A stretch of 64,000 nt of DNA from NCBI RefSeq assembly GCF_964204645.1, contig NC_134034.1, positions 11,155,414 to 11,219,413 of the forward strand. Direction: 5' to 3'. The notes beneath the pieces were generated by a model, which did no database searches, was not told the DNA's origin, and saw only the letters and a list, made by a program, of their open reading frames with translations. Positions 18,153-39,800 of the stretch are shown here, in pieces. The number at the start of each line of letters is the position of its first letter. Within the stretch, counting starts at the first letter, position 1. Source of the DNA: Tubulanus polymorphus (Eukaryota > Nemertea > Palaeonemertea > Tubulaniformes > Tubulanidae). Position numbers and translations under genes: made by a program.

Positions 18153-19529
18153 TTAAGATCCAGCAGCTGCTGTCGCCGCGGTAACTGCTGCAGCCGCTGC
18201 CGCTTTTTTCGTCGCTTGCAGCTGCAAACTTTTATACAAACGTTTCAACTGTAATTTACGATCGTTCCAACAACCGAGGAACGAATTCGTCAAAAACGCC
18301 GGGTTACTCAACGTGTCGATGCCCCCTTCGTTAAACATCACCGGGCCGTCGTCCCAAATCATATCGAACCCACCGACGCGTCTCTCTTTACCCGTCAATC
18401 GACCTTCCATGTCGATGACGTTCATCACGTCGTCTAGGAGACCGTATTTCAGGTCGTAGTCCTCCTTGCTGCTGGCGGTCAGCGACGGCGACGCATTAAC
18501 CTCGATCAACCACGGCTTCAAACCGCGATTGAGCAGAATATCGTAACCGTAGAGCTCGAAACAATGCTTGTCGTTGATCATCGTTTTTTGAACGCTTTGC
18601 AGACTTTTGACGAATATATCGTCGATCGCGCGGAAACACCGTTCGACGGCTTCGACGCCGTGATGCGCCGTGAGGTAACCGCGTAGTTGTCGCACCGACC
18701 ACTTACAACCTTTCTCCGGATCGTAGTCGGGCGCCGTTTTCTGAATGGCGACGTTCGTCAAGTGCACGTAGTTGTCGTCGATCGAATCGAGCGAGAATCG
18801 CGTGTTGGAGAATCGCGCGAATCCGCCGCGGTAAAGCCACGCGCGAAGCGGTACGTACGACGTAACCAGGACGTAAACGCGAAGGTCGAATTTTCGACCG
18901 CCGATCAGATACGGATCGTCGATATAACGCTGTACGACGTACGTCTCCGGACCCGGGTTATTCGGATCGCTCGGCTGACTGAACGTCTCGCCTTTCTTCC
19001 AGTCGATTATATCCTTCAATTTGCGGAACAAGAATATCCCTTTACCCTGCGCCTTGGCGACCGGTTTCATAATCCAAATTTGTCCGGGCTTCTTTTTGAA
19101 TTCTTCGACGAAAATATGATATTCGGACGGAACTTCGAATGTCGTCGGGAAAAAATCGCATTTCTGCGCCTCGACCTTTCCGTGCTCGCGTTCGATTTGT
19201 TTGCGCATTCGCTTCAGGTTTTTCACCATCAGATTTTTACGCGTCAATTCGTAGTGATTGCGAAAGTGGCAAAGTTTCATGTGCTCTTCCAAGTACGAAT
19301 GGTCGAAGTATTCTTTCATCCAGATGACATCGCACCAGTAGATATCCCAGTCGCTGCCGCCGCCGCTGCTGTCGCTGGGAACTTCCTGCCAACCGCGACC
19401 GCGCAACACGTCCAATATCGTGTTCGTAAAACCGCATTTGAATCTGACGACTCCGCCGCGATCGGCCGCCGCTATTTTCCGCGGCCCTCCCCGACCCGTA
19501 TACGTCGACGTTTTCGACTGCTTCGACAT
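18153..19529 (-). CDS. TTLL9: Tubulin polyglutamylase TTLL9, intronless
   Basis: ATP-dependent tubulin tyrosine ligase-like enzyme that adds glutamates to axonemal tubulin in cilia and flagella. A single open frame of 458 aa covers the whole protein. Landmarks: [13 protein letters not shown] (about 65-77), [14 protein letters not shown] (86-99), [17 protein letters not shown] (152-168, nucleotide-binding lysines), [21 protein letters not shown] (197-217), [10 protein letters not shown] (256-265) and [20 protein letters not shown] then NASPSL (325-350). It aligns end to end with vertebrate TTLL9, about 440 aa, except for a longer N-terminus and an Ala-rich tail of about 20 residues. The start ATG at 19527-19529 fits the family N-terminus. 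The lack of any intron is odd, since vertebrate TTLL9 is multi-exonic and its neighbours here are intron-rich; a functional retrocopy is a good explanation. Strong G/C third positions. Confidence 0.93.
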
Positions 19530-19825: not shown

Positions 19826-20219
19826 GTCGAAGACTCAAATTTCAAACGTCTCAACAAATCCGTTTTCTCCTTGCCAGGGGCGTAGCCAGAAGGATATAAA
19901 ATTTTCTGAGTGCCATTTTTCATTTTGTCAACGAGGATAATTGGTGGATTTCAGTGCAGAGCGACCCCTTCATGATGTATTGTGATAAACCGTCCTTGGG
20001 CTTCTGGATTTGCCTCTGCTTGCAATGATCAAATCAAAACCTCTCGAAAATAATCAAAACCCCTCAAAAATAAAACGAAAACAACACTAAAATTTCGTAT
20101 TAGCATTGTATATATATATCTATATATATATTCAGATGCATATATTATATTATCAGCAATTTATATTTTTCATGTCCCATAAATCTTTTTTTGTATTAAA
20201 AACCTTCATCCAATGATGA

Positions 20220-20247
20220 TAAAAAATCTCTCTCTCTCTCTCTCTCT
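20220..20247. repeat. (CT)n microsatellite
   Basis: About ten CT dinucleotides in intergenic sequence upstream of TTLL9. A short TA-rich tract lies 80-120 bp to the left. Confidence 0.85.
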
Positions 20248-20471
20248 TGTTTTTTTAAAACGAAATTTCAGAAGAAGAAAACGAAAAGTCGATTTCAAAA
20301 TAGAATTGATATGAAAACATGCACAAACAGAAATTGATGATGAAGTCACATCCTCCTAAAACTGCAGCAGCATAAGCACATTAAATGTAAATACGTCGTT
20401 GATTATTAGCAATTACAACAATTAAAACCGTTTGTATTCCTAAAACTAAACTTATTGCTTTGTGGCAAATA

Positions 20472-20584
20472 GCATCCTCGCTTGCCAGGGTTTGATTGCC
20501 TCTCGCCAGACGCGAAAACCCTGGCCGCGGCAGACGGGCTTTACCTTCGGCGAGAGGCGATCAAACCCTGGCAAGCGAGGATGC
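20472..20584. mobile_element. 113-bp hairpin MITE with 7-bp target duplication
   Basis: Arms of 36 bp start GCATCCTCGCTTGCCAGGG and are complementary with one mismatch. The loop is about 41 bp. GCAAATA stands directly on both sides (20465-20471 and 20585-20591), which is a target-site duplication. The near-perfect arms suggest a young insertion. The terminal phrase CCTCGCTTGCCAGGG recurs at 37114-37132 and, amplified, at 42468-42835. Confidence 0.85.
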
Positions 20585-20751
20585 GCAAATAAATGACTGT
20601 TTGCCTCCAATGATCCATCAGCATTTGAAGACCCCTGATCCAGGACTCAGTTCCAGAGTTTACATTTAACTCATTGAAAATGAACTAACTCTACGTCAGA
20701 ATGACCCAGTGTCAAATCTCAACTGAGAACCATGGATCCGAGAACCCGAGG

Positions 20752-21372
20752 CTAGTTGCATAATCAGGGCTCAGACTTAAGACCAGTCTAAGATCATTTT
20801 AGTTCTACAGCCAATCTAACAACTTAACACCAGTCCAAGACCAACTTAGTACTATAGCCAAGCCAAATTTAGTTCTATATCCAATCTAACAACGTAAGAC
20901 CAGTCTAAACTCATTTTTGGCGCTACGGTCAATCTAACAACTTAAGACCAGTCTAAGCTTATTTTGGCTCTACGGTCATTCTAACAACTTATGACCAGTC
21001 TTAGCTCATTTTAGTTCTATAGCCAATCTAACAACTTAACACCAGTCAAAGACCAACTTAGTACTATAGCCAATCCAACTTTAGTTCTATATCCAATCTA
21101 ACAACTTAAGACCAGTCTAAACTCATTTTTGGCTCTACGGTCAATCTAACAACTTATGACCAGTCTTAGCTCATTTTGGTTCTGTAGCCAATCTAACAAC
21201 TTAAGACCAGTCTAAACTCATTTTTGGCTCTACGGTCAATCTAACAACTTATGACCAGTCTAGGCTAATTTTGGTTCTGTAGCCAATCTAAGATCTTATG
21301 AACATTCTAAGCTCACTTCGGTTCTACAACCAATCAATCATCTTAGTCATGACTGTACAACCAGCCCGAGGA
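20752..21372. mobile_element. MITE with internally amplified units
   Basis: The outer ends GAGGCTAGTTGCATAATCAG and GTACAACCAGCCCGAG resemble the termini of the small element at 10938-11092. Between them lie about ten tandem units of 55-65 bp with AACAACTTAAGACCAGTCTA and TTCTATAGCCAATCT. The structure reads as a short MITE whose interior expanded into a minisatellite. Confidence 0.65.
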
Positions 21373-21810
21373 GGATCATTTTCAATATCATTACCCCAGT
21401 AAAATAACATGCACATATATCTTACACATTCATTCAGAGAATGAAAAACCGCTCCCAATAATTAGAAGAAAAAAAAAACCGGAAAAAAATTTATTACATC
21501 TTCACAACATGTCATGATCGTAAAAACAATAGTGTTGCTTGGCAACGATAACGCCACATTTTCAACAATTGATATTTTTCTAAAAATCGGATATAAAAAC
21601 GTCGACGAATTCTACTATTTACGCGTTTCGCTACGTACGAGTATAATCACGTAAATATTCGCCACTAGGTGGCAGCTCATGCACGATTCGACGATTATTG
21701 ATTATTATTATTGATTATTGCGATAATGTATGAAGTAAATGCCGAAATAAAATGTCATTAAACATATTTACACAAAATACAGGTGACGAAATCCCCGTCA
21801 CAAGATACGC

Positions 21811-22250
21811 CGGATCCAGTTCCACAGTTTTGCGAGATAGTTTTAGTTTACCGAGTTGAAATCAGTTTAAACTTAATACAACAGGTTCAAAGTGTTGAGT
21901 TGAGGCTGTGGGATAAGTCATAAAGGCACTTTTTCGATAGGAAATGTACCAAGTAAGCACTTTTTAAGCACTTTTGCAAGACAGCCAGCAGAGACACTCG
22001 CGAGAAAGCCAGCGTTCTTATCTACAATGTGAATCTTTGAATCTATGGTCGGAAAAAAATTTGGGATACCGAAAGTCAAAAGTAAGCGCTTTGGAAGCAT
22101 TTTGAAATTTGTGTGAAAATTAAGTACACTTTCTAAAGCCCTTTCTAAATATTTTTTTTTTCGAAAGCACTTTTAAGCACTTATGGGAGACTAGCTATGA
22201 ATCTTTGTAACATCGAGTAAACTGATAACCCCGTGGAACTGGATCCTGAC
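21811..22250. mobile_element. Element with GGATCCAGTTCCACAG ends
   Basis: The left end GGATCCAGTTCCACAGTTTT pairs with the right end CCCCGTGGAACTGGATCC. The 400-bp interior has AAGCACTTTT repeats but no coding frame. The same termini frame much smaller copies, for example 44268-44366. This could be one long element or two solo ends. Confidence 0.5.
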
Positions 22251-22478
22251 TTATAGAACACGGTCATGGAAGGGTTGTATTCGACTCGGTCGATCCGACT
22301 CTGAACGAAGATTTTTGCAGATATGATTTCTAACACCCAGGATCCAGTTCATAGTTGTGAGTTAAGATTTGACTCATTCAAAACAGGGTTGTTGCGGGTA
22401 TTCCAATTTCATTTCCATAACTTGTCTGTACCCAGACAATAAAATTTCTTTACCCTAAGTTACACATCCCTAACCTAA

Positions 22479-22836
22479 AGCCTAGCGCACATCGACACTG
22501 CGATTGGAGACAACTAGTTGCTACCTAACGATTACCCCGCGCACATCGAAATCTAGTTACAACCGGTCAGTTGCAGCAACTGCATGGCGCGTGTCGATCG
22601 TCGAGATCCAGAGCGCGCACATCGACGGATATGACTGCGATTGAGTACAACCAATTGCTCAAAAGTAGAACATGGGCAACTGGCTGGAACTGGAGATAGA
22701 TCGACGCTTACCAATCGTAAGCTCGCTCACATCGACACATTCAAGCAACTGATCGTATCCAGCCAGTTCCTCTCATGCGCCGAAAACTGCCTTGCAACTA
22801 GTTGTCTCCAATCGCAGTGTCGATGTGTGCTAGGCT
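22479..22836. mobile_element. 358-bp MITE, TAA duplication, long terminal repeats
   Basis: Terminal inverted repeats of about 45 bp begin AGCCTAGCGCACATCGACAC and end with the complement GTGTCGATGTGTGCTAGGCT. TAA occurs directly outside both ends (22476-22478, 22837-22839). A 3-bp TTA/TAA target is the hallmark of PIF/Harbinger elements. Further internal CGCACATCGA words suggest nested sub-repeats. No transposase. Confidence 0.8.
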
Positions 22837-23312
22837 TAAAACAGGCAATAAAGGCCCAGTCAAAGCAAACACTGCAAGTGCCAATAGTGATACTATTGAC
22901 AATGTGTTTTCATAAAGTTTGTTATATGAATTGTATAGCAAGACATTTAGGCATATAGCCTAAAATAAGATGGACAAATTTATTTTGAGACCATTTTCTG
23001 ATTTTCCATACCCATAGAGAGTGAAAAAAAAACAAACAAAATTTCCATCACTTTTCAAGGGCCTGGAAAAAGAAATTCACAAGTTCCAAAACCCACGACT
23101 AAAATGAACTAATTTTAACTCAAACTGTGGAATCGGATCCCAAAGTTTTTCGATGTAGCCCAATTCTGCAATTGACGAAATATTCAACCTATTAGTTAAT
23201 CGTCTAACAGTTTCAGGATTTCAGTTTCTAAACTGCATCATCAGAGTAAATTTCACTTAAACACCGTTGTAAATAGTTGAGTTGTTTCCAGTCGTGATGA
23301 ATACCGTATTGA

Positions 23313-23461
23313 GAGAAACCCACGATATCAATTCGAGCAACTGTTATTATTTCGGATTTTTCCACCCATCTTCCGAGTTTATTTGAAAAAAAAAAAAATC
23401 ATTTTCAAAAAGGAAAAAAAACCAATAACAGTTGCTTAAATTGATATTGTGGGTTTTTCTC
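23313..23461. repeat. Inverted repeat, AAACCCAC/GTGGGTTT arms
   Basis: GAGAAACCCACGATATCAAT at the left is complementary to the right-hand ATTGATATTGTGGGTTT, and the inner CAACTGTTATT/AATAACAGTTG words also pair. About 150 bp. The arm phrase resembles the arms at 40255-40490 and an isolated end near 43770-43810. Confidence 0.6.
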
Positions 23462-23469
23462 AATGATAA

Positions 23470-23830
23470 ACCTAACATTGCTAATAACTATGTACTTCTT
23501 TTAAAAGTTTTGAAAGAAGGTTTCTAGTTTCCCCTTTTCTCTTTCGATTGGTGGATTTTAGACTTTTGTATCAAGTTATACAATGACTTGTCTACTTACT
23601 TTAAGTCTACTTTAACAACTTTTCAAAGCAACTTAACAACTTTTAACGAAGTCTACTCCGAGGGCATCCCCCCGTCGGGTACAGAGCTCTTACGGCTCTT
23701 ACGGCTCGGGGATGTCCTCCTCAAATATGTAAATTTTCAATTAACATGTAGTAATCGAAGAAAATTTTTATACCCATGTTCACATACTTGAGAAAATAAA
23801 TTCATTCATTCATTCATAACAACCCATCCA
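23470..23830 (+). mobile_element. Possible retroelement 3' tail with (CATT)n
   Basis: AGAAAATAAATTCATTCATTCATTCAT closes this stretch as a run of CATT repeats at about 23795-23820 (positions given in place of the full run). A terminal short tandem repeat is typical of LINE or SINE 3' ends. A 67-codon open frame runs into it, but I recognise no reverse transcriptase motif, so this is only a possibility. Confidence 0.3.
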
Positions 23831-24089
23831 CCAAAAAAAAACCGGGGCGATAAAACCAGCGGCTAGATTCGTATCCATTTCAAATATCGTTTTAATCCGA
23901 TACCAGACACCGGGTGAAATTCAACATGAAAATGCAGGCAAACAAAACAAAGAAATAAACGTTATATTGCAATGATTTTTTTTTCAGGAAGGCAACCGAT
24001 TATGTAAGGGGCTGAAGCTTTCCTACATTGTTAAGTATCAATAGACATAAGCGAGATAATAGACATTCACGAAACAAAGTCACCGGTAA

Positions 24090-24370
24090 CCTTTTAGGCG
24101 CGTCTGCACCGCAGTGCGGTGTATAAATTAGTGATGAACTTTGCCAGTACACAACATCGCGGCGTATTGATGTTATTAGTTTTTATCTCTTTTGAAAGAT
24201 GGCAGTAACTTATGATCATGGTGAAATATTAGTAACTAACGATACACCGCGCCGCGGTGTAGACGCACTATAGCGGTATGCCCGTTATTCAACACACTGG
24301 GGTGGAATTTTTTAAAATTTTCAAATTATCTCCAGCACTATATGGTATTGATTAGTCAGCACTGAAAGGG
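24090..24370. mobile_element. piggyBac-like MITE, copy 1 (diverged left end)
   Basis: The right terminus GCACTGAAAGGG is followed by TTAA at 24371-24374. The left terminus CCTTTTAGGCGCGTCTGCAC is a diverged copy and its TTAA has decayed. The interior has GCAGTGCGGTGTA and ATACACCGCGCCGCGGTGTA palindromes. It matches the intact copy at 30251-30512. It lies just downstream of the zinc-finger gene. Confidence 0.75.
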
Positions 24371-24496
24371 TTAAGAACAAATCACATTGCAATCAAATTG
24401 CAATCTCAGACATTTTCGTTGGATCATTTTTTTCCGCGTTTTTGGAGCCGAAATCAACTCAATATTCAGCCGTTCAACGAGCGGAATAACTAAACT

Positions 24497-27400
24497 TCAG
24501 TTACCGGACTCCGTTACGGAACAAACAGCCGTGATCAACAACTGTTCCTCAGAGGCGGCAGGGGTTAGTTCATTATCCTCGTCTCCGTATCGCTCGACAG
24601 AGCCACCCATTATTTGCGGTTGCGGAATGAATTCACAATCGCCGGAATTCGACGTAGCAGCAGACGCGTTAATCGTCTGATCACCATTGCCCGGACCCGT
24701 GGTGCCATCTATTGTCTGCGGCGATATCGTCATAGATCGTGTTTCGGCGTCGTTAACAATAACGCCCCCTATAGGAACCATGGTAGCTACCGATTCACCG
24801 TTATTCGCGATGTCGTCGTCCTGTTGCGAAATCAGCGCCGAAACGGCTCCGCGAATTTCATCGTTTTCTTCCTCCTCTTTACCGCCACTGCCAGGTGGCA
24901 ACAGCAGTGCAGCATTACCGCCACCAGGTGGCAGCGACGCATCCTCGTCGACGGACAGAACATGAACTAACGATGGGATATCTCCGGCCGTCGCGGTCGA
25001 GAACGATTCCGAGACAGACGTGGTGGCGCCACCTACCGGTGATACATCTAACATGATCGGCGATGCCGTGAACTCCGACTGCAGCGCCACGTCCGTACCG
25101 ATATTCCTGCTGTCGTCATCGTCGCCATGGCGATCAGCCTCGATTACCGAATTGATCACCGATTCAACGTGTTGCAGAGTCTCGTGGTTACGATTATCGT
25201 TGACACCAGGGGGCGCTGTACCGTGACCGGCGGCCGACGCGACGATGACGAGTTTTCCGTCGTGAAACGTCGCCGAGCTCCCCCCGGCTCCGCTCATGAC
25301 GACCAGACCCTCGTTTCCTCCTCCTCCGCACGTGCTCAGTACCTCACTACCGCTGACAACGAGGTGCATCGCGTCCGGGTTACCGTGGGAACCGGGCGGA
25401 AGCACAATACTGATCGGTCGTTGCGTGGAGGTCGTAGGCGGCGCCACCGGAACGGTCAGATCGCCGTCGGACGGGAATTCCGCGTTCAACATGGCCGCCG
25501 TCGTCGCCGCGGTGATGGCCTTCTGTTCGGCGACGTGATGCGTTTTGACATGCTCGTGAAGCAGGTCCTCGCTCGCGAAAACCGTCTTACAATACAAACA
25601 ACTGAAACTACACGTCGTCGCCACGGATACTCCGCCTGTCTGCACGTCAACAGACGAATCACCTCGGTGAGTCTTCGCGTGAATCTTCAACAATCCGAGA
25701 TTCCCGAATCCCTTGCCGCAACCGCACACGTACGGACGCTCGCCGCCGTGTACTTTCATGTGCGCGGTCAGGTTGCCGCGGTTGATGAACGTCGACGAGC
25801 AGACGTTACACTGGTGCGGACGCGCCGACACCGTCGACGTATCGTGACTCGATTTCACGTGTCGGTGCAGGTCGACGCGCGACGCGAACTCCGTCGCGCA
25901 AACCCCGCAGCGGAATCTCGCCGGCGGCGACTGCGTCGGAGTCTTCGACGGCATCGTCGACGTCGCCGTTGTCACGGCGACGCCGCAGCAATGTTTCTCG
26001 AATAAATGCTTCTGCAGACCCTCGTTGTCGCTGAACGAAGCGCCGCACGACGAACACTCAAACGATTTACGCGCGGTGTGCGTCAATAGGTGGCGCTGAT
26101 AGCCGCCGTTGTGGGTGAATACACGACCGCAGTATTGACACGTGTAGCGGTCGGACGCGTGCGTTTTGATGTGCAATTTCAGGAACTTGACCTTCGTGAA
26201 CTCGCGGTTGCAGAAACTGCACTGAACCGGTTTGCCGGGTTCCTCGACCGGGATGTATTTATCTAGATCATTCGAATCTGAAAAATAGCGAAATCAATTT
26301 AGAGATCTCAATTAACCACTGATATTCCTAGAGGTAACTATGGCATGTAGTGAGGATCCACCGGGTGTCGCTAGTGTGCTGTAGCAAATCAACTACTGCA
26401 GCAATAGATTCCACTTATGGGTAGTGAGGATCCACCAGGTGTCGCTAGTGTGCTGTAGCAAATCAACTACTGCAGCAATAGATTCCACTTATGGGTAGTG
26501 AGGATCCACCAGGTGTCGCTAGTGTGCTGTAGCAAATCAACTACTGCAGCAATAGATTCCACTTATGGCAAGTGAGGATCCACCAGGTGATGCAGTAGGA
26601 CATCAACTACTAGTGAGGATCCACCAGGTGTCGCTAGTGAGCAGAGTGAAATCAAAGGCGAATTTATCTTGTCAAATCAGATTCGATTTTCCTAATCATA
26701 ATTTGCTAGTCGCCTGTAATCTAATCAAATAAGATTTGCACAACAGGATGAATTTGACGCCTTGTTCCAAACGGCTGACAAGAAAATACTGTCCCACTTT
26801 TTAAAATATTTTTTCCTAATAATGAGTTTCAGGTTTCTTTTTCAGTTTTGACATTTATATCACTGTTTTTCGAAAACAATTTGTGAGTCTAACATCTTCA
26901 AATTGTATCAAATCACCTACGGGGGTGATTAGATGATTTGACAAATAGATTTGAATTTGATACCATGTTAAATTAAAAAATTAGATCAAATTTAATTATG
27001 ACAAGATAATAACGATTTTACTTAAATCAAATTTGATTTGACGTGATAAATTCGCCTCAACTTCTGCAGCAATAGAGAATTCCACTTGTGGCAAGTGAGG
27101 ACCCACCAGGCGTCGCTATAATTACCTGGTATTTTTAGCACTTCTGATTGGTTGATCGAGTTTTGAATTGAAGGCGATGAGACACAATCCGGAACCATCT
27201 GAAAAATACAAAATAGATTTCAATTTGAATAAGAAGATGCTAATTTTCAATCTATGATTCAGCTATCGCCACCTGGGGGCGATACTCGTACCTGTGAAGT
27301 CACGATTACGTATTCAGCGCCGTTTGAACTAGATTTCTGGCCGTCTATCTCCATGGCGACAGTGGAAGCCGGGTTGATAACAACCGATGCTTTCGGAGAC

Positions 27401-28231
27401 TGAACATCACCGGATAGTATCACTGATACTTCATCGTTGCTATGGCGACGTTTCTTAGCGACGAGCTTCGGATCGAGGCTAATAACGGGATTCTGAAAAA
27501 TTATTTGAAAATCGTCTAAAATATTTTTGCGATGAAATTCAGAGGCAAGTTGAACATATTGTACGCCGGGGGTGGAGGGATGAGCGATACCACCAGCTAT
27601 TTTCCGGCAGGGGTATAGGTAGGGTAAGAGATGAAGAGTTGAGTTCATAATGTTGGTAGTAATAATGTAAGCGAGTAGGGTGAGTACAACCGCCAAATAA
27701 AACGCCCGAATTTTCAGCTCCGTTTCTCAAACCCTCTACCAAACTCTCTTCTGCATCCTTTTATAATATGCATACGTAATCAGTGCGATCATCAGCCAAT
27801 CAGAATGGAATAACATCATTTACAGCTCCATCAATGTTGTCTGTTTCATATTGATAAACTGGCAATGCTTCAAACTTGTCTACGGCTAAAAAGCGGCCTA
27901 ACTAACTCATCTCTTTGGCCTAACTCTTAGAGGCTATAACTCTTTTGAGCAGACTTGAGTATGGCCTGGGTGATGATGATGATGCTGTCAAACTCAGTCA
28001 AAAAGTGACCAGGATTTTTTATCTAAATGAAGACATAATCAAATGGCAGAATGGGACCTTCTTGTGTGTGTTGACTTTAATAAAAATGTTGGCTTCCTTT
28101 CATTTTGGCTATTTTCTTCCGTGGACTTCTCGTCGTGTGGCGGAGTGTGAGTGGTTTTTTATTTAGTGGTTTTTTGGCTTGAAATTTAGCGTTGATTCGA
28201 GAAGAAAGGAATGAATTACCTCCATATCCAT
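24497..28231 (-). CDS. C2H2 zinc-finger protein, seven fingers
   Basis: Probable sequence-specific DNA-binding regulator in the nucleus; I do not recognise an orthologue. Coding exons: 28220-28231 (part of an exon running to about 28384), 27292-27492, 27126-27198 and 24497-26277. Phases agree and give 688 aa. Start: ATG at 28229-28231; earlier ATGs in the exon reach stops quickly, though the frame stays open upstream, so a longer N-terminus is possible. Fingers from about residue 115: CSFCNREFTKVKFLKLHIKTH-type finger (positions 26130-26222), then YTCQYCGRVF, FECSSCGASF, FRCGVCATEF, HQCNVCSSTF, the unusual YVCGCGKGF (Cys-x-Cys spacing) and FSCLYCKTVF. The C-terminal 350 residues are low-complexity, rich in Gly, Ser, Thr and acidic residues, possibly a regulatory tail. 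The exon is GC-rich, so its opposite strand is also open. Confidence 0.88.
26360..26640. repeat. 74-bp tandem repeat, about 4 copies
   Basis: Units carry GTGAGGATCCACCAGGTGTC, GCTAGTGTGCTGTAGCAAAT and CTACTGCAGCAATAGATTCC. Full copies start near 26350, 26425 and 26499, followed by truncated ones; a lone copy reappears at 27060-27115 beyond the next MITE. It lies in the zinc-finger gene intron upstream of its main exon. Confidence 0.88.
26651..27056. mobile_element. MITE splitting the 74-bp repeat array
   Basis: The ends AGGCGAATTTATCTTGTCAA and TGATAAATTCGCCT are inverted repeats; CAA stands outside both. The inner halves hold many AAATCAAATTTGA-type words that can self-pair. The 74-bp repeat resumes directly after it at 27057, so it inserted into an existing array. 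Confidence 0.7.
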
Positions 28232-28436
28232 CTGAGTTGTAGCTTTCCTCGTCGTCAATTCAATTACAACCAGTCGGCCACATTTTACAATTCGTACAGC
28301 TGAATTTTTAACGTCGAGACGGAAATTTTTTACACATCTTTTTGTTCTCCACAAATCACCATTACAGTCGACCGGTGCTGCCACCTGTCAGCATCGCGCT
28401 AAATACCGACGAGAAACTACCGCCGTTGAATTGTTC

Positions 28437-28599
28437 ATCGGGTTCGAGCCCCGATAAAACCACACTGCCCGAACGAGTGGTTGATTGAACCAATATTATA
28501 TTCAATACCCACAATCAACCGTGGCCCCGTCGGAATTTAACTCTTTTGAGATAAAACTTTGCCATTGAGTAATTCAAACTTAACCATAGCTGCATGTGG
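28437..28599. other. Upstream flank of the zinc-finger gene
   Basis: Between the first zinc-finger exon and the foldback element. It holds a short T-arm-like hairpin at 28437-28453 without the rest of a tRNA, and CAATCAACC/GGTTGATTG words that pair around 28475-28510. A promoter could be here, but no clear core element is visible. Confidence 0.35.
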
Positions 28600-29893
28600 C
28601 ACAGGGACTTGTCACGACTGATAATGGATGAGACCAATGATGGGGGTACCAGTATCCCTGCAACTGTATAATAAAATAACAAGGGTGGCAACAAATTTTC
28701 AATCTGACAATGACTTATCCACTTCAATCGACTGTAATTCCAAAAATTCTCAACCGATTCACATGAAATAAGCTTTAATACAACCTAGAAGACTTTCTGC
28801 TTCGAACGAGCCTACAACCACCACTCTCCGACAATTATCTCACAACGAAATCACCTTTTTTTGACGAGAGATAGCTCAAAATGGAGGTGTACCGATTCTA
28901 TGGTGGACAGCAAAATGGTCGTTTTTTTCAATTCAAACGATGATTTCTATGTGAGATCTTAGAGAAAACCCCAACAAACCATACATTTTTTAAAACTACG
29001 CGGTCATACCTGTACGCTTATCTCATTTATTTGTATAATCCACGCGATGGGTGAGCTCACAAGCTCAAAATCGAAAATGAGGACGAACACGGCGTTCAAC
29101 TTGTCATCAACTGGGCGGCCATTAATCACGTGATATCGTAGTAACGGGCTAAATATTTCACGCGCATTGATTGGCTTAGAGATTTCGAAAAACATTACAA
29201 AATTTATCAAAAGTTCTGTTAATTAATAAAATATCCGTATTATGAAAATATAGTGCAACATTCGTCTGAGGGGTGGTATTATTAGCAAACATTTCCTTTT
29301 TTCAAGTCTACAGACGTAGACTTGTCGCGGTTTTATTAACATAGCCCGAACCTGCACGTCACGTGATTAATGGCCGCCAGCGCGATAGTGCGAGGTGACT
29401 TTTTCGTATATTTGTTCGATTTTGAGCTTGCGAGCTCACCCATCGCGTGGATTATACAAATAAATGAGATAAGCGTACAGGTATGACCGCGTAGTTTTAA
29501 AAAATGTATGGTTTGTTGGGGTTATCTCTAAGATTTCACATAGAAATCATCGTTTGAAGTGAAAAATACGACCATTTTGCTGTCCACCATAGAATCGGTA
29601 CACCTCCAATTTGAGCTATCTCTCGTCAAAAAACGGTGATTTCGTTGTGAGATAATTGTCCTAGAGTGGTGGTTAAAGGCTCGTTGGAAGCAGAAAGTCT
29701 TCTAGGTTGTATTAAAGCTTATTTCATGTGAATCGGTTGAGAATTTTTGGAATTACAGTCGATTGAAGTGGAGAAGTCATTGTCAGATTGAAAATTTGTT
29801 GCCACCCTTGTTTTTTATATTATACAGGGATAGTGGACCTGGTCATTGATATTGGTTTTATTCATTCACTATCAATTGTGACAAGTCCCTGTG
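28600..29893. mobile_element. 1.29-kb foldback element with exact 8-bp duplication
   Basis: Two arms of about 553 bp (28600-29152 and 29341-29893) are inverted copies that read as highly similar by eye, around a spacer of about 190 bp. Termini are CACAGGGACTTGTCAC and its exact complement. GCATGTGG occurs directly outside both ends (28592-28599 and 29894-29901). An 8-bp duplication is typical of hAT and a few other DNA transposon superfamilies. No transposase frame exists, so it is non-autonomous. Transcribed, it would form a hairpin of over 500 bp. It sits about 215 bp upstream of the first zinc-finger exon. Confidence 0.9.
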
Positions 29894-29901
29894 GCATGTG
29901 G

Positions 29902-30246
29902 GGTTAGCAAGACCACTAGTCCAAGACCCGATCTTAGTTCTATAGCCAAAACTACTTGAAGACACTTTTGGACGTTACAACTGTGTGAAACTGGGCCAAA
30001 TTTACTCACTCCATCCGTTCTGAAACAACAACTTCCACAAGACAATAAACAGAAACACCAACAAATTAATTGTTAAACTTGTAAATAATTCTTTTGTAAT
30101 CATCAATACATAAACATTCATCAATACATAAAAGTTCAAACCATCAAACGGATTCCAGAACAGCAGATTCTGCGAATCAACCACAAAAAAGATCGCACCC
30201 TCCACCATATTTAAGTACATCAACTTCTAAACAGCTCAAGACCCAG
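29902..30246. other. Intergenic, no gene seen
   Basis: AT-rich with a small ACATTCATCAATACATAAA repeat near 30110-30130 and a fragment of the AGTTCTATAGCC repeat family. No splice-supported coding exon. Confidence 0.5.
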
Positions 30247-30250
30247 TTAA

Positions 30251-30512
30251 CCCTTTCAGTGCGTCTACACTGCAGTGCGGTGTACGAATCAGTGATTGAT
30301 TTTGCTAGTACACCGCACTGCGGTGTATTGATTTAATTAGTAATTACTAATCATCTCTATTGAAAGATGGCAAACCACTAACGATACACCGCGCCGCGGT
30401 GTAGACGCACTATAGTGGTATTCCCGTTATTCAACACACTAGGGTGGAATTTTTAGAAATATTCAAATTATCTCCAGCACTATAGGGTATTAATAAGTCA
30501 GCACTGAAAGGG
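30251..30512. mobile_element. piggyBac-like MITE, intact copy
   Basis: TTAA at 30247-30250 and 30513-30516 flanks inverted termini CCCTTTCAGTGC and GCACTGAAAGGG. A TTAA duplication with a CCC start is diagnostic of the piggyBac superfamily. The 262-bp body carries three near-palindromes: CTACACTGCAGTGCGGTGTA, TACACCGCACTGCGGTGTA and ATACACCGCGCCGCGGTGTA. Diverged copies lie at 24090-24370, 43675-43746 and 57524-57606. Non-coding. Confidence 0.88.
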
Positions 30513-30890
30513 TTAAAACTACAAAGACCCATAGATTAGGACCTGTTAACTGACCCCAGGCGGCAGGGCACTCCCTCAGCAGCATTAGTTTAATAAGATC
30601 ATCATAGATTTCTGCAAACATCTGGTAAACCCGAGTTTACTGTCACTCGGGGAAGAATTCTACCAACTTACTAGCAATTTCAACTGTCTCAATTTGACTG
30701 CAGTAACAGACAGGACGTACAGTATTTCACTCAGTATTCGACACCGTTTCGCAGTAAGACACAAGTCTACTATTTTACAAACTCTGTATTTGACATCAAC
30801 TCATCTAGAGTTAAACAAGTCTCATCTGCCAAACCTCGTTAACAATCAGATCCGACACTCTTCCACACTGATCCTTCTGCCGTCTGTCAA

Positions 30891-33800
30891 TCAATGCGCG
30901 TTCGCTTCTACTTGCATGATGTGATAGACGTTATTTTTGAAAACTGATTTGAATTCCGGCGACGGTTTGTTGTTTAAATCTTTGCAGACGGCGCGATTCC
31001 CGCGATTTTCCTCGTCCTCGATGTCCCAGATTTCGGGCATTGCGCAACCGGCCCTGCAAACGCGAACAAACACAAACAACATTAACTCGGTTAAGAATTC
31101 AGTAAAACTCACAACTCGAAGTAAAACTAAGTCAGGTTTTGACGTTTCAGCAGACGTATTTTAAAAAAACTTTTTTTTGAAAATGGCTCCTAGCATATTC
31201 TCACGGGTGATTCCCAGATATAAGCAGTTTCCAAGTTGTAGAGTGTAAAAGATGAAGACAATCGAGGCCGGAGCTGATCAACTGTTGAAGTATAAGATCT
31301 CGAGGACCCCCAGATTTCGAACAACACTCACCCCGATGATCTGTAACACCAACTGTTCTCTAAGATGACGTAATCGACTTGTAAATCTCGATAATTCTGC
31401 CAAACTTCCCTCCGCGGTTTACGACTGTACATCGAATAAACCTTTTTCGTCCTCGCTCTGAAAAAATGGCCCGTTTTGCGAAGAATTTAAGATGAAAACG
31501 TTTATGATAATAATGATAATAATCATGGTATCAGCTGGTTCTAAAGTCTAAGCGAATGCCGTTTGTAAATGGAGTTAATACCTGAGTCCAACGTCTTCAT
31601 AATGCGGGTGATTTACTATAGGACGTCCCGTGCATAGTTTGATCGTCGCCATCGTCGGCATCGGGCCGCCAAATACAGCATCTAAAATACATCAAATACA
31701 TTGTGTACACACATACTGCTGAAAAACTTTGTCTAAAAAGAACTGCAGAAAGTAACTCTGTCACTATCTGGATTCAAACTGTCAATTATGGGGATGGAGA
31801 GCTCGGAGAACTATAGAAAGTAACTCAACTATAGAAAGTATCAACGTCAGGATTCAAACTACCTATTGTCTGGGTTGGAGAGCTCAGAGAAGAACTACAG
31901 AAAGAAACTCTGTCACCGTCAGGATTCAAACTATCAATTGTCAGGGGTGTAGAGCTCTGAGAAGAACCACAGAAAGAACCTCTGACACTTTCAGGATTCA
32001 AACTACCAATTGTTGGAGTTGGAGAGCTCAGAGAAGAACTACAGAAAGAAACTCTGTCACCGTCAGGATTCAAACTATCAATTGTCGGGGGTGTAGAGCT
32101 CTGAGAAGAACCACAGAAAGAACCTCTGACACTTTCAGGATTCAAACTATCAATCATGGGGGGTCGAGAGCTCAGCAATTCTGAAGAATCGTCACAAACA
32201 ATCTCACAATCGATGATGTCAGAAGTTTCTTTCTGAAAGATTTTCAGATAGTAAGACATCTATGAAGCGCACACGTACTTTTATGAGTTGATGAATTGAC
32301 CCATTCGATCATCTCTTCCATCGCGGCGTTGCTGAATTCACCTTGTATGCTCCATTCATGTTTCAGATTACTGTAGCCGATTACACTCATCCCCGCTAAC
32401 AGTAATCCTAACACGCCCAGATGGTGAACGCGTTCCTTATAAGGGAAAAACTGTAAAACAAACATTATAAATTTATTATGATAATGCAGGATAGGTCACG
32501 ATTGAATGTATTTCAGTTTAGGAATATTAATTCCAAATGACAAACTCTCTACCGGCCGCTTCTATCAGGTTTACAGATTACAAACTCTCTACCGGCCGCT
32601 TCTATCAGGTTTACAGATTACAAACTCTCTACCGGCCGCTTCTATCAGGTTTATAGATTACAAACTCTCTACCGGCCGCTTCTATCAGGTTTACAGATTA
32701 CAAACTCTCTACCGGCCGCTTCTATCAGGTTTACAGATTACAAACTCTCTACCGGCCGCTTCTATCAGGTTTACAGATTACAAACTCTCTACCGGCCGCT
32801 TCTATCAGGTTTACAGATTACAAACTCTCTACCGGCCGCTTCTATCAGGTTTACAGATTACAAACTCTCTACCGGCCGCTTCTATCAGGTTTATAGATTA
32901 CAAACTCTCTACCGGCCGCTTCTATCAGGTTTATAGATTACAAACTCTCTACCGGCCGCTTCTATCAGGTTTACAGATTACAAACTCTCTACCGGCCGCT
33001 TCTATCAGGTTTACAGATTACAAACTCTCTACCGGCCGCTTCTATCAGGTTTACAGATTACAAACTCTCTACCGGCCGCTTCTATCAGGTTAACAGATTA
33101 CAAACTCTCTACCGGCCGCTTCTATCAGGTTTACAGATTACAATCTCTCTACCGGCCGCTTCTATCAGGTTTACAGATTACAAACTCTCTACCGGCCGCT
33201 TCTATCAGGTTTACAGATTACAAACTCTCTACCAGCCGCTTCTATCGGGTTTACAGATTACAAACTCTCTACCGGCCGCTTCTATCAGGTTTACAGATTA
33301 CAAACTCTCTACCGGACGCTTCTATCAGGTTTACAGATTACAAACTCTCTACCGGCCGCTTCTATCAGGTTTACTGATTACAAACTCTCTACCGGCCGCT
33401 TCTATCGGCTTTACAGAATACAAACTCTCTACCGGCCGCTTCTATCAGGTCACAGATTACAAACTCTCTACCAGCCGCTTCTATCAGGTTTACAGATTAT
33501 ACTATTCAGGAATAGGTAGAGCGTATTCTGGTCTATATGCGCCAGAATTCCAGAATTGGTAGAAACCAATCGAAACCTGCCAAACTCTACCGGCGGCTTC
33601 TATCGGGTTTACAGTTTATACTATTCCGGAATAGGTAGACGCCTATTCTAGTTGAAACGACCGAATAATTCTAAGAAATGGAATGAAAATTTATCCCGTA
33701 CCTTGTCCGACGCGAGCAACGACGCTAATAAACATAAATGTGGCGTCCAAAACAGTTTCAAACGCATGATTAACACAGCCATGATTGAGTAGGCAGCTAA

Positions 33801-36800
33801 CTGGATTATATGGTATAGAACTTCACTGTGCTGTTTAGATCGATACTCACTGAAAGTATATGCGATTAGGAAAATCAATTTCACGCCACTTTTAACCCAT
33901 AATACCGAATTAGACTCAAGTTTCTGGTCCTGGTTTTACAGTCGAGTTGAATCTAGCATTAAATATTGGAAATTAAACTCAAATGACAACTGCAGAACAG
34001 GGGACTGGGTCTTGAACCGTGGAACTGCGTTCAGAACAGTAGAACTAGGTTCAGAACTGTGGAACTGGTTTCAAAACGTGAAACTAGCTCCAGAACTGTG
34101 GAACTGAGTCTATAAATGCGGAACTGGGTTCAAAACAGTAGAACTAGGTTCAGAACTGTGGAACTGGTTTCAAAACTTGAAACTAGCTCCAGAACTGTGG
34201 AACTGAGTCTATAAATGCGGAACTGGGTTCAGAACAGTAGAACTAGGTTCAGAACTGTGGAACTGGTTTCAAAACTTGAAACTAGCTCCAGAACTGTGGA
34301 ACTGAGTCTATAAATGCGGAACTGGGTTCAGAACTGTTGAACTAGCTCCTGAACAATAGAACTAGGTTCAGAACTGCGGAACTGAATCCAGAATTGTGGA
34401 CCTAAATTCCGAACTGTGGAACTGGCTCCTGATCTGCGGAACTGGATCCTGAACTGTGGAAACAGCTCCTGGACTGTGGAACTGAGTCAACAAACAACTT
34501 CACACAAATTTACCTTTCGATGTTATTATTCGTTGTTTTATGACTATCAGTAGCTTGTTCAGCTGCAGATTTTCGATATTCATTCATCAACATCTAAAGC
34601 CAAAAAAATTCAAAAACCATTTTCAGAGACACTTCTCATCGAGGTCAAACCGATTCAAAGCAGAATAAATAAGAGAACAAACTTCGGGGTCCAGTTTTAT
34701 AAACTGGCATTGATATTAAGCAGGAAGGTTAGTCAGCCCCCCAGAGTTAAAGTCAATACCAGTCCATAAAACCGGCTCAATGGATATTCAGGGCCGACGT
34801 ATACCCGTATCGGTACTTACAGTGAATAAAGCGGCTAACACCCCGACAACGCAGGCCGGTAGCACCAATGTCTGACTCAGTTTGACGAACGGTTCTTTTC
34901 CTAGAAAGTCGAATTCAACGGCGCACGTGTACAACATCGTGTGGAAGTTTTTATACGTCGAGAATTTACTGCGCAAAATATCAGCGATATGAGCCTAGAA
35001 TATAGATATATTGGTCGTGAAACAAAGAAATTCCGCTTTTCGATATGTCAGGGTGCCAACCTCTGAAAAGTGCCATCAGTGACACCAAATTCTTTCGAAA
35101 CATTTCAATGAAATATGAAAATGTTCAAATTAATCAGTAATCAACAGTAAGACCCTCAGTAACATGTTTCATATTTCTGTTCAAATTAATCAGTTAATCA
35201 ACAGTAAGACCCTCAGTAACATCTTTCATATTTCTGTTCAAATTAATTAGTAATCAACAGTAAGACCCTCAGTAACATCTTTCATATTTCTGTTCAAATT
35301 AATCAGTAATCAACAGTAAGACCCTCAGTAACATCTTTCATATTTCTGTTCAAATTAATCAGTAATCAACAGTAAGACCCTCAGTAACATCTTTCATATT
35401 TCTTTTCAAATTAATCAGTAATCAACAGTAAGATCCTCAGTAACATCTTTCATATTTCTGTTCAAATTAATCAGTAATCAACAGTAACACCCTCAGTAAC
35501 ATGTTTCATATTTCTGTGCAAAGTAATCATTAATCAACAGTAAGACCCTCAGTAACATCTTTCATATTTCTGTTCAAATTAATCAGTAATCAACAGTAAC
35601 ACCCTCAGTAACATGTTTCATATTTCTGTGCAAAGTAATCATTAATCAACAGTAAGACCCTCAGTAACATCTTTCATATTTCTGTTCAAATTTATCAGTA
35701 ATCAACAGTAACACCCTCAGTAACATGTTTCATATTTCTGTGCAAAGTAATCATTAATCAACAGTAAGACCCTCAGTAACATCTTTCATATTTCTGTTCA
35801 AATTAATCAGTAATCAACAGTAACACCCTCAGTAACATGTTTCATATTTCTGTGCAAAGTAATCATTAATCAACAGTAAGACCCTCGCTAACATCTTTCA
35901 TATTTCTGTTCAAATTTATCAGTAATCAACAGTAACCCCCTCAGTAACATGTTTCATATTTCTGTATGTATCAAACGAATCAAATCAGTATTTCTCTACA
36001 TAATAGTTGTAACAAATACTGAAAATCAGGAACAGTTTGCAGCAGCTCTGCGTTTTTATCTTCTTCAACTTACGTCATCAGCAACGCGAAGTAATTTCGA
36101 TATCAAGAATTTGACTCCCACTAAACCGGTAAGTAGCAGAACACCTTGAGCAACCTAGAATAGAGTTTCAGAATACAACGCCACATACTTCCACGTGTAT
36201 TTGAAAATATGGACAGTTTCGCGGTACAAGTTTTCCGTACGAACCCAAATTAAGAGAATGTGTTTGAGTTTTTCTATGAATGGTTCCAAGTAAACAATCA
36301 ACTGAAATAGACACAAATTAGGTATTAATAGTGAACGTAGTCTAGAGCAAGCAACAGGCGGATCCAGGGGCTGACTTCGACGGGAGCACAAAGAAATGTA
36401 AAGGGCGTACAGTTGAAAAGGGCGTACAATTAAAAGGGGCAAGAATCCACGCAGAGCGAGCGTCAAGTCAAATCAAGGGTCTGGAAAATTTAGAAATCGC
36501 TGCGCATTTTCATACAATTTCCAGGCATTTGAACGATATTAACGAGTATATAAGTAAAGTTGATCCTGCGTTGCAGACTGGTGTCTGATTAGTCGTCGGT
36601 GGAAAAAGTGACATGAAAAAAATCGCCATCGTATCTTTCAAAACGGCACAAGAGAACTGCGCGACGATAGCACGTCATCGTAGAGCTGTTTTCAATCTCA
36701 CTAATGTATTCCGGACTACATGAAATACGGCCTGGAGCCTGACGATTATTGCGTAATTATTCAGAACTTACGTGAATAGTGACTAGAGCCGAGAAGAAAA

Positions 36801-39800
36801 ATGAGGTGAGAAGCATCTCATTACCGAACAGCAACAAATAACTCACGACTAAACCCATCTGAAATTCAGAAACCATTTATCAGACTCAGAGAAACTCTCG
36901 GAATTTATCGATTTTACGATCGAAACGAGTTTGTACTCACAGATTGACCGATCAGGATGATCTTAATTTTACGCGATCCTATGAAACGCAAGGCGTAAAC
37001 GGCGAACACGGCCAAACTCTGAGTCAACAACGCGAACTGAGCAAACTGAAAATATCGCAACAGCAGACGGATGGAGAATTAAAAAGAAAATAGATGACAC
37101 CACTGAGGAAGGTCATCCTCGCTTGCCAGGGGTCTGGTATCACTCCCGAAATCTTTTCCACCAGCCCCCTGGCCTCACGAAGCGTGATTTCATTACTGGC
37201 GCTGTTGCGCATGACGTCATATATCGATTTGCGAAATACTTCCTTGTTCAGTAAAACGTTCGCTGATTGGTCCATTTAACGGGAAAACCAATAGAAGCCT
37301 AAAGTCGTTTGTTACAAGCGCTGTGATTGGTACGACCGGATTCTGGTCGGCTAGTAACGACTCCAACGACTCGTGAGGTCAAGGGGTTCGGCGAACAGCT
37401 TAAGCATAATGGGTTCGAATTCCTTGACGGGTGAAGATGAGGAGAGTAGGTATCGAATACTCACCTGCCAGGGCAACATGAATGAAACTGTCGCTATCGC
37501 TATTAGGACGCTGTGCTTGTAATTCGGACGGGAAATTCTACGAGAAAAAACAGAACAGATTTCCGTATACGAATGAAGCGTTTTACTGCACGGTGAAAAT
37601 GAAGTGGATTTCAGCGAAACTTACTTTAAAACATGAGTAACTACTAATAACTGTATGAGTAGGAATGGGTAGGCGAAACTCTCTCGCAGCGGCGGTGTCC
37701 ACTGGACGCGGGTAGCCTGGAAAATTCATTCAACTTGCGTTATCAGTAACTGATGTCATACGGGGATTTATGGTGGCAGCCATCTTGTTCGGGACAATGG
37801 TAGGTTAATTTGATGATCTCATAGGGGGACGTATGGAGACAGCCATCGTTAACTTCTGTGATAGTCTATAGAGGTTCTAAGTGATGTCATGGGGGGGATT
37901 TATGGAGGCAACCATCTTTTCTGGAAGGTTCTTTAGCTCAATTTGATGACGTCAAAAGGGGATGTATGGAGATCTTTTCTGGAAGCATTATAGATCAAAT
38001 TGATGATGTCATAGGGGGATTTATGGCACCACGCATCTTTAATGGAAGCGTCTATAGATCGAAACGCTGGTAGGTAATTTGATGACGTCATAGGGTGATT
38101 TACGGAGGTGGCCATCGGTACTCACTTCTCCGTGATTGTAGAAAAAACAGACAACGGACAACAGACCCCCGAATAAACTTCCGCTGAAATGAGAAAAAAC
38201 AGGTTGCGAATTGCGCAAAAACTGCCGACAATTGTTGAGTCTTCGTTTTTTGTTTTTGTTTTTTTTACCTTATATGCACGGCTAACAGGAATAAAACGGA
38301 GACTCCAACGCCGTTTACGAAAAATACGTTATCCACGTAAAAATACGCCGGATCACCGAAACCTGCAGTTTAAAAAAAAGTCAATTCAAATCTTTTAATT
38401 ACCGCGGTAAAAACAAGCGGCGGATCCAGGGTCTAAGAATCAGGGGGGGGGGTGTCGACGTAACAAATTTGGGACTTTTTGAAAAATCATGTATCTGTTA
38501 GCAACATAATCAAGGTGAAACAAATGAGGAATTTGTAACTGTGTTCATTTTTTCTAAATAGAAAAACTTTTTGAAAAGTACGAACCCTCGCAACTTTGAA
38601 CCGGTGGTAGATTCCCTCCTCGATTCACCGTGAAACATTCTTTCGTTTTGATTCCCAGCGAACCGGTGATCGAATCATAAATACGAAAACCAATCCCGAG
38701 AACGACCTAAAAAAAGAAAAAAAATAGAATCATAAACATTTTCAGTCAGAAGTACTGAAAGAATATCGGAGCCAGTTTTACCGCAGTGGCTCTTTGAACC
38801 CAGGCTTACAAGAATGGTTCTTTGAACCCGGGCTTACAAGAATGGTTCTTTGAACCCGACTTACAAGAATGGTTCTTTGAACCCGACTTACAAGAATGGT
38901 TCTTAGAACCCGGGCTTACATGAGTGGTTCTCAGTTCTTTGAACCCAGGCTTACCTCGGGGATTCTACAAACCCGGGCTTACCTCAGGAGGTACCACAAA
39001 TCCGGGCTTACCTCACAGGGGGTTCTACAAACCCAGGCTTACCTCACAGGGGGTTCTACAAACCCAGGCTTACCTCACAGGGGGTTCTATAAACCCAGGC
39101 TTACCTCAAGAGGTTTGACAAACCCGGGCTTACCTCGGATGGTTCTACAAACCAGGGTTTACCTCGGGGGTTTTTAGTAACCCAGGCTTACCTCAGGGGT
39201 TTCTATAAACCCAGTCTTACCTCCGGGTATAAGTTGAATCGTTTTAAAGTATTTATAACAGCCGGATATTCAGTGATGTTGTCTCTCATCACTGAATGCA
39301 ATCCTTCAAATAATGACTCGGCTTCGATAATAGTTTTATAATACGAGTAATATAATCCCTGAAAATAGAATAAACATCAGCGTTTCAAAATTACCAGTTT
39401 CCTTCCACCCAGTCAGAGAAAATGACGAATATTCCCCTGGTTTTTAAGACTATATTAATAAATGACGTACCATTTCAGTTCTAAACGTGAACTCACGCTC
39501 GAGACTAGACAAATGTGAAAAATGCCGATCGCTTTCAAACATGTAGGAAATGTGTTGACTGAAAAATTACGCGCAAAAACAACAATTATTTTATAAAAAA
39601 AAAAACAATTAAAAAACAACTACGGATTGAAAAAAGTGAGAGTTTTAATTGGTCTCTGGTCTGAAGTGAGAGTTTTAAGCCGCGATCACACGAGCGTTTC
39701 TTGGCCCGGAACAACTATTCACACGGGTGCCAAATGGGTTGGGCCAAATTTGGTCCAGACCAAAGCCAATTTTTAGCACGGGGTTAATTATTGCAACTGG

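Follow-up and report, generated by a model that had tools for sequence, protein, structure and literature searches.

The window analysed here, a stretch of 64,000 bp (C10:11155414-11219413), carries at positions 28600-29893 a 1294-bp unit consisting mostly of two inverted arms. Is this unit a transposon, and if so, which enzyme moved it? The first-pass annotation had proposed a foldback transposon with complementary termini and an exact 8-bp target duplication. Direct reading of the sequence bore out both features: CACAGGGACTTGTCAC is found at 28600-28615 on the + strand and at 29878-29893 on the - strand, and exact copies of GCATGTGG flank the element on the left (28592-28599) and on the right (29894-29901). 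The alignment of the left arm (28600-29133, + strand) with the right arm (29359-29893, - strand) shows 489 identical positions, with 31 mismatches and gaps in 29 columns. As claimed, the arms are long, pair over most of their length and form the bulk of the element, which places it in the foldback-type structural class. The figures given for them were too high: the arms measure 534 and 535 bp (not about 553 bp) and together account for 1069 of the 1294 bp, i.e., 82.6% (not over 85%).

The similarity of the arms is concentrated in an inner core of 402 bp (28674-29075 and 29415-29816), which is gap-free and has 388 of 402 positions identical (97%). No other inverted repeat in the window is as long: among the 25 longest of 92 pairs, the runner-up has 135 bp. 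The outer ~75 bp of the arms are poorly alike (58 identical positions, 9 mismatches and 16 gap columns), and so are the innermost ~57 bp (43, 8 and 12, respectively). The two ends of the element are distinct and were named L, the diverged outer ~74 bp of the left arm, and R, the outer ~76 bp of the right arm, which also occurs in short MITE-like copies. The loop of 225 bp between the arms (29134-29358) contains TAGCCCGAA at 29342-29350 (consensus positions 743-751), the place where a long copy described below has a 7.5-kb interior. We looked for tandem repeats within the arms and saw none. The 14 differences between the core arms show no excess of A/G changes, which says little about editing, a process acting on RNA.

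The search for similarly ended copies with 8-bp duplications, proposed by the first-pass annotation, was successful. In 267.8 Mb of sequence (77 contigs), the 16-bp terminus had 393+371 matches with at most two mismatches, whereas its reversed control had 22+17. Full-length copies number at least 33: of the 40 places scored (260 candidates), 33 align over positions 1-1294 with 94-100% identity, and the other seven align to part of the element only. We cut out 30 loci (L009-L038). Exact 8-bp duplications, differing between loci, flank 26 of the 30 and show a weak palindromic preference near GTTWWAAC. The duplication was inexact in L028 (7/8) and L033 (6/8), and absent in L031. A tandem duplication of the right end and flank makes L032 look larger than it is, and this copy matches at 7/8 positions at the inner end and at 8/8 at the duplicated outer end.

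Most copies are very similar. Twenty-three of the 30 loci are within ~1.0% of their consensus, the other seven are at 1.6-4.0%, and the window copy has four differences over 1294 sites. The core arms are 89-97.5% identical inside single copies. Between the two arms of the consensus there are 30 mismatches and 29 columns with gaps, whereas the 23 close copies differ from the consensus at 13 sites or fewer. The differences between arms thus exceed those between copies, so that most of them are common to the copies and the unit spread in its present form. The family is young.

We then used longer patterns for the two ends to class the copies by size. The L-end pattern (36 bp, at most two mismatches) had 73 matches and the R-end pattern (40 bp, at most one mismatch) had 95, with none in either control. 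For 56 of the 73 L ends, a listed R end lies no more than 20 kb away; the other 17 are unpaired, some of the latter being foldback copies with an R end that is cut or beyond the mismatch limit. The pairs include 14 of less than 300 bp, six of 300-1000 bp, three of 1000-1270 bp, 29 of 1270-1310 bp, one of 1310-2500 bp and three above 2500 bp. The short derivatives have both family ends, with 132-310 bp between L and R. In two of them (L056 and L057) the R end is joined to the L end and the duplications are exact, and another copy (L055, 644 bp) has one arm. By eye, the flanks of L010, L016, L026 and L030 contain, beside the foldback copies, stretches resembling an element with ends near TAGTCAGTAACCTGACTGTGG.

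The insertion of the family is also documented by an empty site. When we joined the flanks of another family member, L017, keeping its duplication once, all 40 scored places (110 candidates) matched across the junction with 95-99% identity. L017 sits in a host repeat, and the further copies of that repeat among the scored places are empty; since all 40 places are copies of this repeat, the result concerns L017 and none is informative on the window copy. The further copies, the target-site duplications and this empty site strongly support the identification as a foldback transposon.

The absence of a transposase noted by the first-pass annotation is right for the window copy, and we searched for a coding relative among the long L-R pairs. 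Four candidates were judged to be nested insertions and rejected, the inserts being named by eye from their open frames. L039 is a short copy in which a LINE-type reverse transcriptase is nested, C4:13135289-13147503 has a nested Penelope-like frame in L040 (13138000-13147700 read), L084 has a nested reverse-transcriptase-like frame, and L085 has 848 bp inserted into its left arm, with a duplication of 9 bp. Positions 412-1259 of L085 are a dispersed element with ends near TAGTCAGTAACCTGACTGTGG.

A further copy, L083 (C5:10492263-10501098), is 8836 bp long and has ACCAGAAT duplicated on both sides. Its ends match consensus positions 1-751 on the left (95.5%) and 743-1294 on the right (96.4%), i.e., they are at 3.6-4.5% from the consensus, and between them lies an interior of 7529 bp. 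Both junctions of the interior show the 9-bp near-repeat TAGCMCGAA, which corresponds to consensus positions 743-751, and the 1294-bp form is L083 minus its interior, joined at this near-repeat. The arms of L083 pair over 577 and 579 bp, with 505 identities, 58 mismatches and 30 gap columns. At 4314-4532 (interior positions 3461-3679), L083 contains a dispersed repeat of ~220 bp found in dozens of places at 83-87% identity.

The interior of L083 carries the remains of two genes. On the + strand, 1756-2592 matches the RFX_DNA_binding profile (2.6e-8, over the cut-off) just upstream of transposase remains: the stretch 2634-3386 is similar to the P-type protein of L061, a locus matched by PF21787 in the same genome (64 of 277 residues identical, E 7e-11 in tblastn against a 9-kb database, with stops present). 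Further on, 3934-4236 (+) matches the RNase-H C-terminal profile PF21789 with an E-value of 0.0044, below the cut-off. The PF21787 profile itself had no match at L083, nor did the 136-aa transposase piece (2622-3029) and a 103-aa piece (3165-3473) match any Pfam profile. The RFX-like and transposase frames are probably exons of one gene. A THAP DNA-binding domain is usual in the P superfamily; we found none in the pieces of L083 that were scanned, which cover part of the frames, and RFX_DNA_binding is found there and in L086. The - strand, read from 8175 to ~6080, holds a PIF1 helicase, with profile matches at 1.1e-8, 2e-8 and, below the cut-off, 1.2e-4, and a match to the Pif1 2B domain (5e-7). 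The search for a partner transposase therefore returned a probable relative, with the reservation that the reading frames of both genes, transposase and helicase, are broken. L083 carries the remains of a P-type (TNP-like RNase H) transposase, and the window element would belong to the same superfamily through the arms they have in common. P-superfamily elements make target-site duplications of 7-8 bp, in agreement with the exact 8-bp duplications of 26 of the 30 loci and with ACCAGAAT in L083.

Relatives of this interior are found elsewhere in the genome. In L086 (C17), RFX-like, transposase-end and PIF1 stretches follow each other at 2258-4725 in the same order as in L083 (tblastx, 30% identical protein); its RFX match is just over the cut-off (6.1e-6) and its C-terminal transposase-like frame has no Pfam match. 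Three places at C5:18.102-18.126 Mb match L083 in pieces from 4208 through PIF1 (DNA 77-94% identical). Their overlap with the transposase frame is limited to its final ~29 bases, and they thus support PIF1 more than the pair of transposase and PIF1. We also observed a further relative of the RFX-like, P-type and PIF1 stretch at C9:7141715. The PIF1 pieces had no match at E 1e-3 in the fetched stretches of other P-type loci.

Does this interior belong to the family? It could be an unrelated element inserted into a foldback copy, in which case it would not reveal the family's own mobiliser. The near-repeat at both junctions could be the 9-bp target duplication of such a nested insert, other sequences are nested in family members (L084, L085 and L039), and L083 itself is the one full-length interior of this type found among 40 scored of 2749 candidates. 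Yet, the interior lacks inverted ends (its terminal 300 bp give a best match of 12 bp), and its RFX-like, transposase-like and PIF1 stretches recur in order in L086. The superfamily of its transposase makes duplications of about 8 bp, and in excerpts of one report those of Galileo are of 7 bp (PMC2775673). Furthermore, the palindrome of the arms runs on for 25 bases into the interior beside the right arm. Of these bases, 19 of 25 agree in register, and 22 of 5000 shuffles scored at least as high. This fits the loss of an original interior by deletion better than a later insertion, although it is not proof. We therefore regard a nested insert as unlikely.

Instead, we favour the reading, to which we give a probability of roughly three in four, that the window element is a young, non-autonomous P-superfamily transposon made of two terminal inverted repeats (TIRs), mobilised in trans and derived from an element of the L083 kind by loss of the interior. 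We observed the arms, the termini, the duplications, the copy number, the low divergence, the empty site of L017 and a long relative with P-type remains; from these we infer that a P-type enzyme moved the family. The ancestor would have been of ~8.8 kb with arms of ~580 bp, with transposase frames running inward from the left arm and PIF1 from the right. The direction of change was presumably from the long to the two-arm form: the 7.5-kb interior would have been lost at TAGCMCGAA, and the two-arm unit would then have spread in a fixed form. A P-superfamily transposase acting in trans would bind the termini and arms, excise the element and rejoin it with an 8-bp stagger. The two-arm form would retain what the transposase requires while being short, and hairpins in the arms could yield further deletions, e.g., the short copies. 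L083 probably descends from the source of the family. Given its broken frames and the single full-length interior among the 40 scored of 2749 candidates, it cannot itself have been the most recent source of a family this young, and we found no intact source copy.

Could another enzyme of this genome have moved the family? Other P-type families were rejected as a source, as none of the 20 PF21787 matches has paired family termini in its 1.5-kb flanks; L063, L064, L067 and L068 have one unpaired terminus match each, with four mismatches. The nearest of these 20 matches to any of the 168 listed ends is at 146 kb. Two P-type families, A and B, showed no family termini within ~4.8 kb on either side, save one unpaired match with four mismatches (L082). 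Three P-type loci (L060, L061 and L062, at C8:4049685, C4:10193313 and C6:18195588) share 99.6% identity across 3.4 kb, which marks them as a P-type family of very recent date; they lack the foldback-family ends. Elements of the Mutator/Foldback group have a MULE transposase and 9-bp duplications; the duplications here are of 8 bp.

Mobilisation by a hAT transposase would agree with the 8-bp duplications, and hAT domains are plentiful: there are 79 PF05699 matches, eight of them with an open frame of 735 aa. A terminal CAGGG would also suit hAT. However, the outermost bases are CACAGGG and the duplication abuts them, so that CAGGG is not terminal. None of the 79 matches lies between family ends, and the nearest is 22 kb from the 168 listed L or R ends, a distance that depends on a weak profile and on mismatch-limited lists. 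This makes hAT a very improbable mobiliser. The 735-aa frame, found in eight places of equal score (on C1, C3, C4, C6, C7, C10 and C12), is probably that of another recently active transposon.

The window copy might have been domesticated as a hairpin supplying siRNA or regulating a neighbouring gene. The first-pass annotation had suggested dsRNA as a source of siRNA or an ADAR substrate and, with the first zinc-finger exon placed within 220 bp of the element, a possible action on its promoter. Folding predicts a single long hairpin with a minimum free energy of -877 kcal/mol, a value with no shuffle control at this length, and long dsRNA is predicted if the element is transcribed. This fits a domesticated hairpin, but the prediction restates the arms and is not independent of their alignment, and with four of 1294 sites differing from the consensus the copy resembles any recent insertion. 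The claimed distance of the zinc-finger exon was not confirmed. In our scan of positions 20001-38000, the - strand has C2H2 motifs between 25535 and 26221 (also found with Pfam), and the nearest outside the element (26159-26221, -) is 2371 bp from 28592. A nearer motif, at 28628-28693, is inside the element and is probably a chance match. At E 0.01, no Pfam profile matched the open reading frames at 28166-28384 and 27262-27696 (-). Neither the motif scan nor these searches revealed a gene feature within 220 bp and, with the closest finger motif found 2.4 kb off, an effect on the promoter is unsupported, although a non-coding first exon may lie closer. We find domestication scarcely credible; the window element probably has no host function. 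Elsewhere in the window there are inverted clusters of a GGAACTG-type short repeat (34001-34493 and 56160-56294; by eye, the flank of L034 is similar), a 692-aa open frame that consists of a simple amino-acid repeat and is unlikely to be a gene (4242-6320, +), and a 458-aa open frame resembling, by eye, a tubulin-tyrosine-ligase-like protein (18153-19529, -). Finally, long palindromes are a known type of assembly artefact, but a palindromic read chimera is highly improbable here given that the arm differences are largely common to copies elsewhere, the duplications are exact and there is an empty site.

The two-arm P-superfamily transposon that we favour has parallels among described elements, which we compared using excerpts of the cited reports. 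It resembles Galileo of Drosophila in having a P-superfamily transposase relative, very long TIRs and many deletion forms consisting of two TIRs alone. GalileoN has TIRs of ~575 bp around a middle of ~350 bp (PMC2775673), compared with 534/535-bp arms around 225 bp in the window element, and Galileo TIRs range from ~300 bp to 1.2 kb (PMC3573991). By analogy, the window family would work like the two-TIR copies of Galileo (GalileoN and Newton). We do not claim that it is Galileo, whose duplications are of 7 bp with the consensus GTAGTAC (PMC2775673), whereas ours are of 8 bp with a weak GTTWWAAC preference. Galileo arms are also described with tandem repeats, which were not seen in the window arms. 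Its transposase has a THAP domain (PMC3688188), whereas L083 has an RFX-like match, no THAP in the scanned pieces, and a PIF1 helicase beside the transposase.

Foldback (FB) of Drosophila consists mostly of long inverted arms. Like FB, Tetris of Drosophila and the Tm1 Mutator/Foldback elements of nematodes (PMC3169594), the window family is non-autonomous with long inverted arms. Tetris was placed in Mutator from its 8-10-bp duplications with no transposase in hand; its mobiliser was not found, and foldback elements can be orphans (PMC4079207). In contrast, the window family has P-type transposase remains. The short family members (132-310 bp, with exact duplications in L056 and L057) resemble MITEs, which are usually shorter than 600 bp (PMC3573991), whereas the main form has 1294 bp and 534-bp arms. 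Zisupton/KDZ elements match in their 8-bp duplications (PMC12730594), but L083 carries P-type remains.

A more tentative proposal, which we hold at clearly lower odds than the main reading, is that the source elements form a P-superfamily branch not described so far: elements of ~8.8 kb with 580-bp arms, a transposase binding DNA by an RFX-like domain that replaces THAP, and a convergent PIF1-like helicase that moves along with the transposase and could aid the unwinding or replication of palindromic arms. The role of the helicase in handling the arms is a guess. If true, it would explain the tolerance of foldback ends and the success of two-arm derivatives in this lineage. Our literature search, a weak one in which several terms were required jointly in one open library, returned no P-type element with PIF1 or RFX.

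A single genome thus holds the two-arm form, MITE-size derivatives, and a long copy showing how the former may have arisen by a single interior deletion. Should the RFX-like and PIF1 stretches truly belong to the element, they would widen the known cargo of the P superfamily and provide a testable idea on the handling of long palindromic ends. Long arms of this kind have been tied to inversions in Drosophila, in the excerpted text of PMC2775673, and the dozens of near-identical copies in this genome may be candidate inversion breakpoints.
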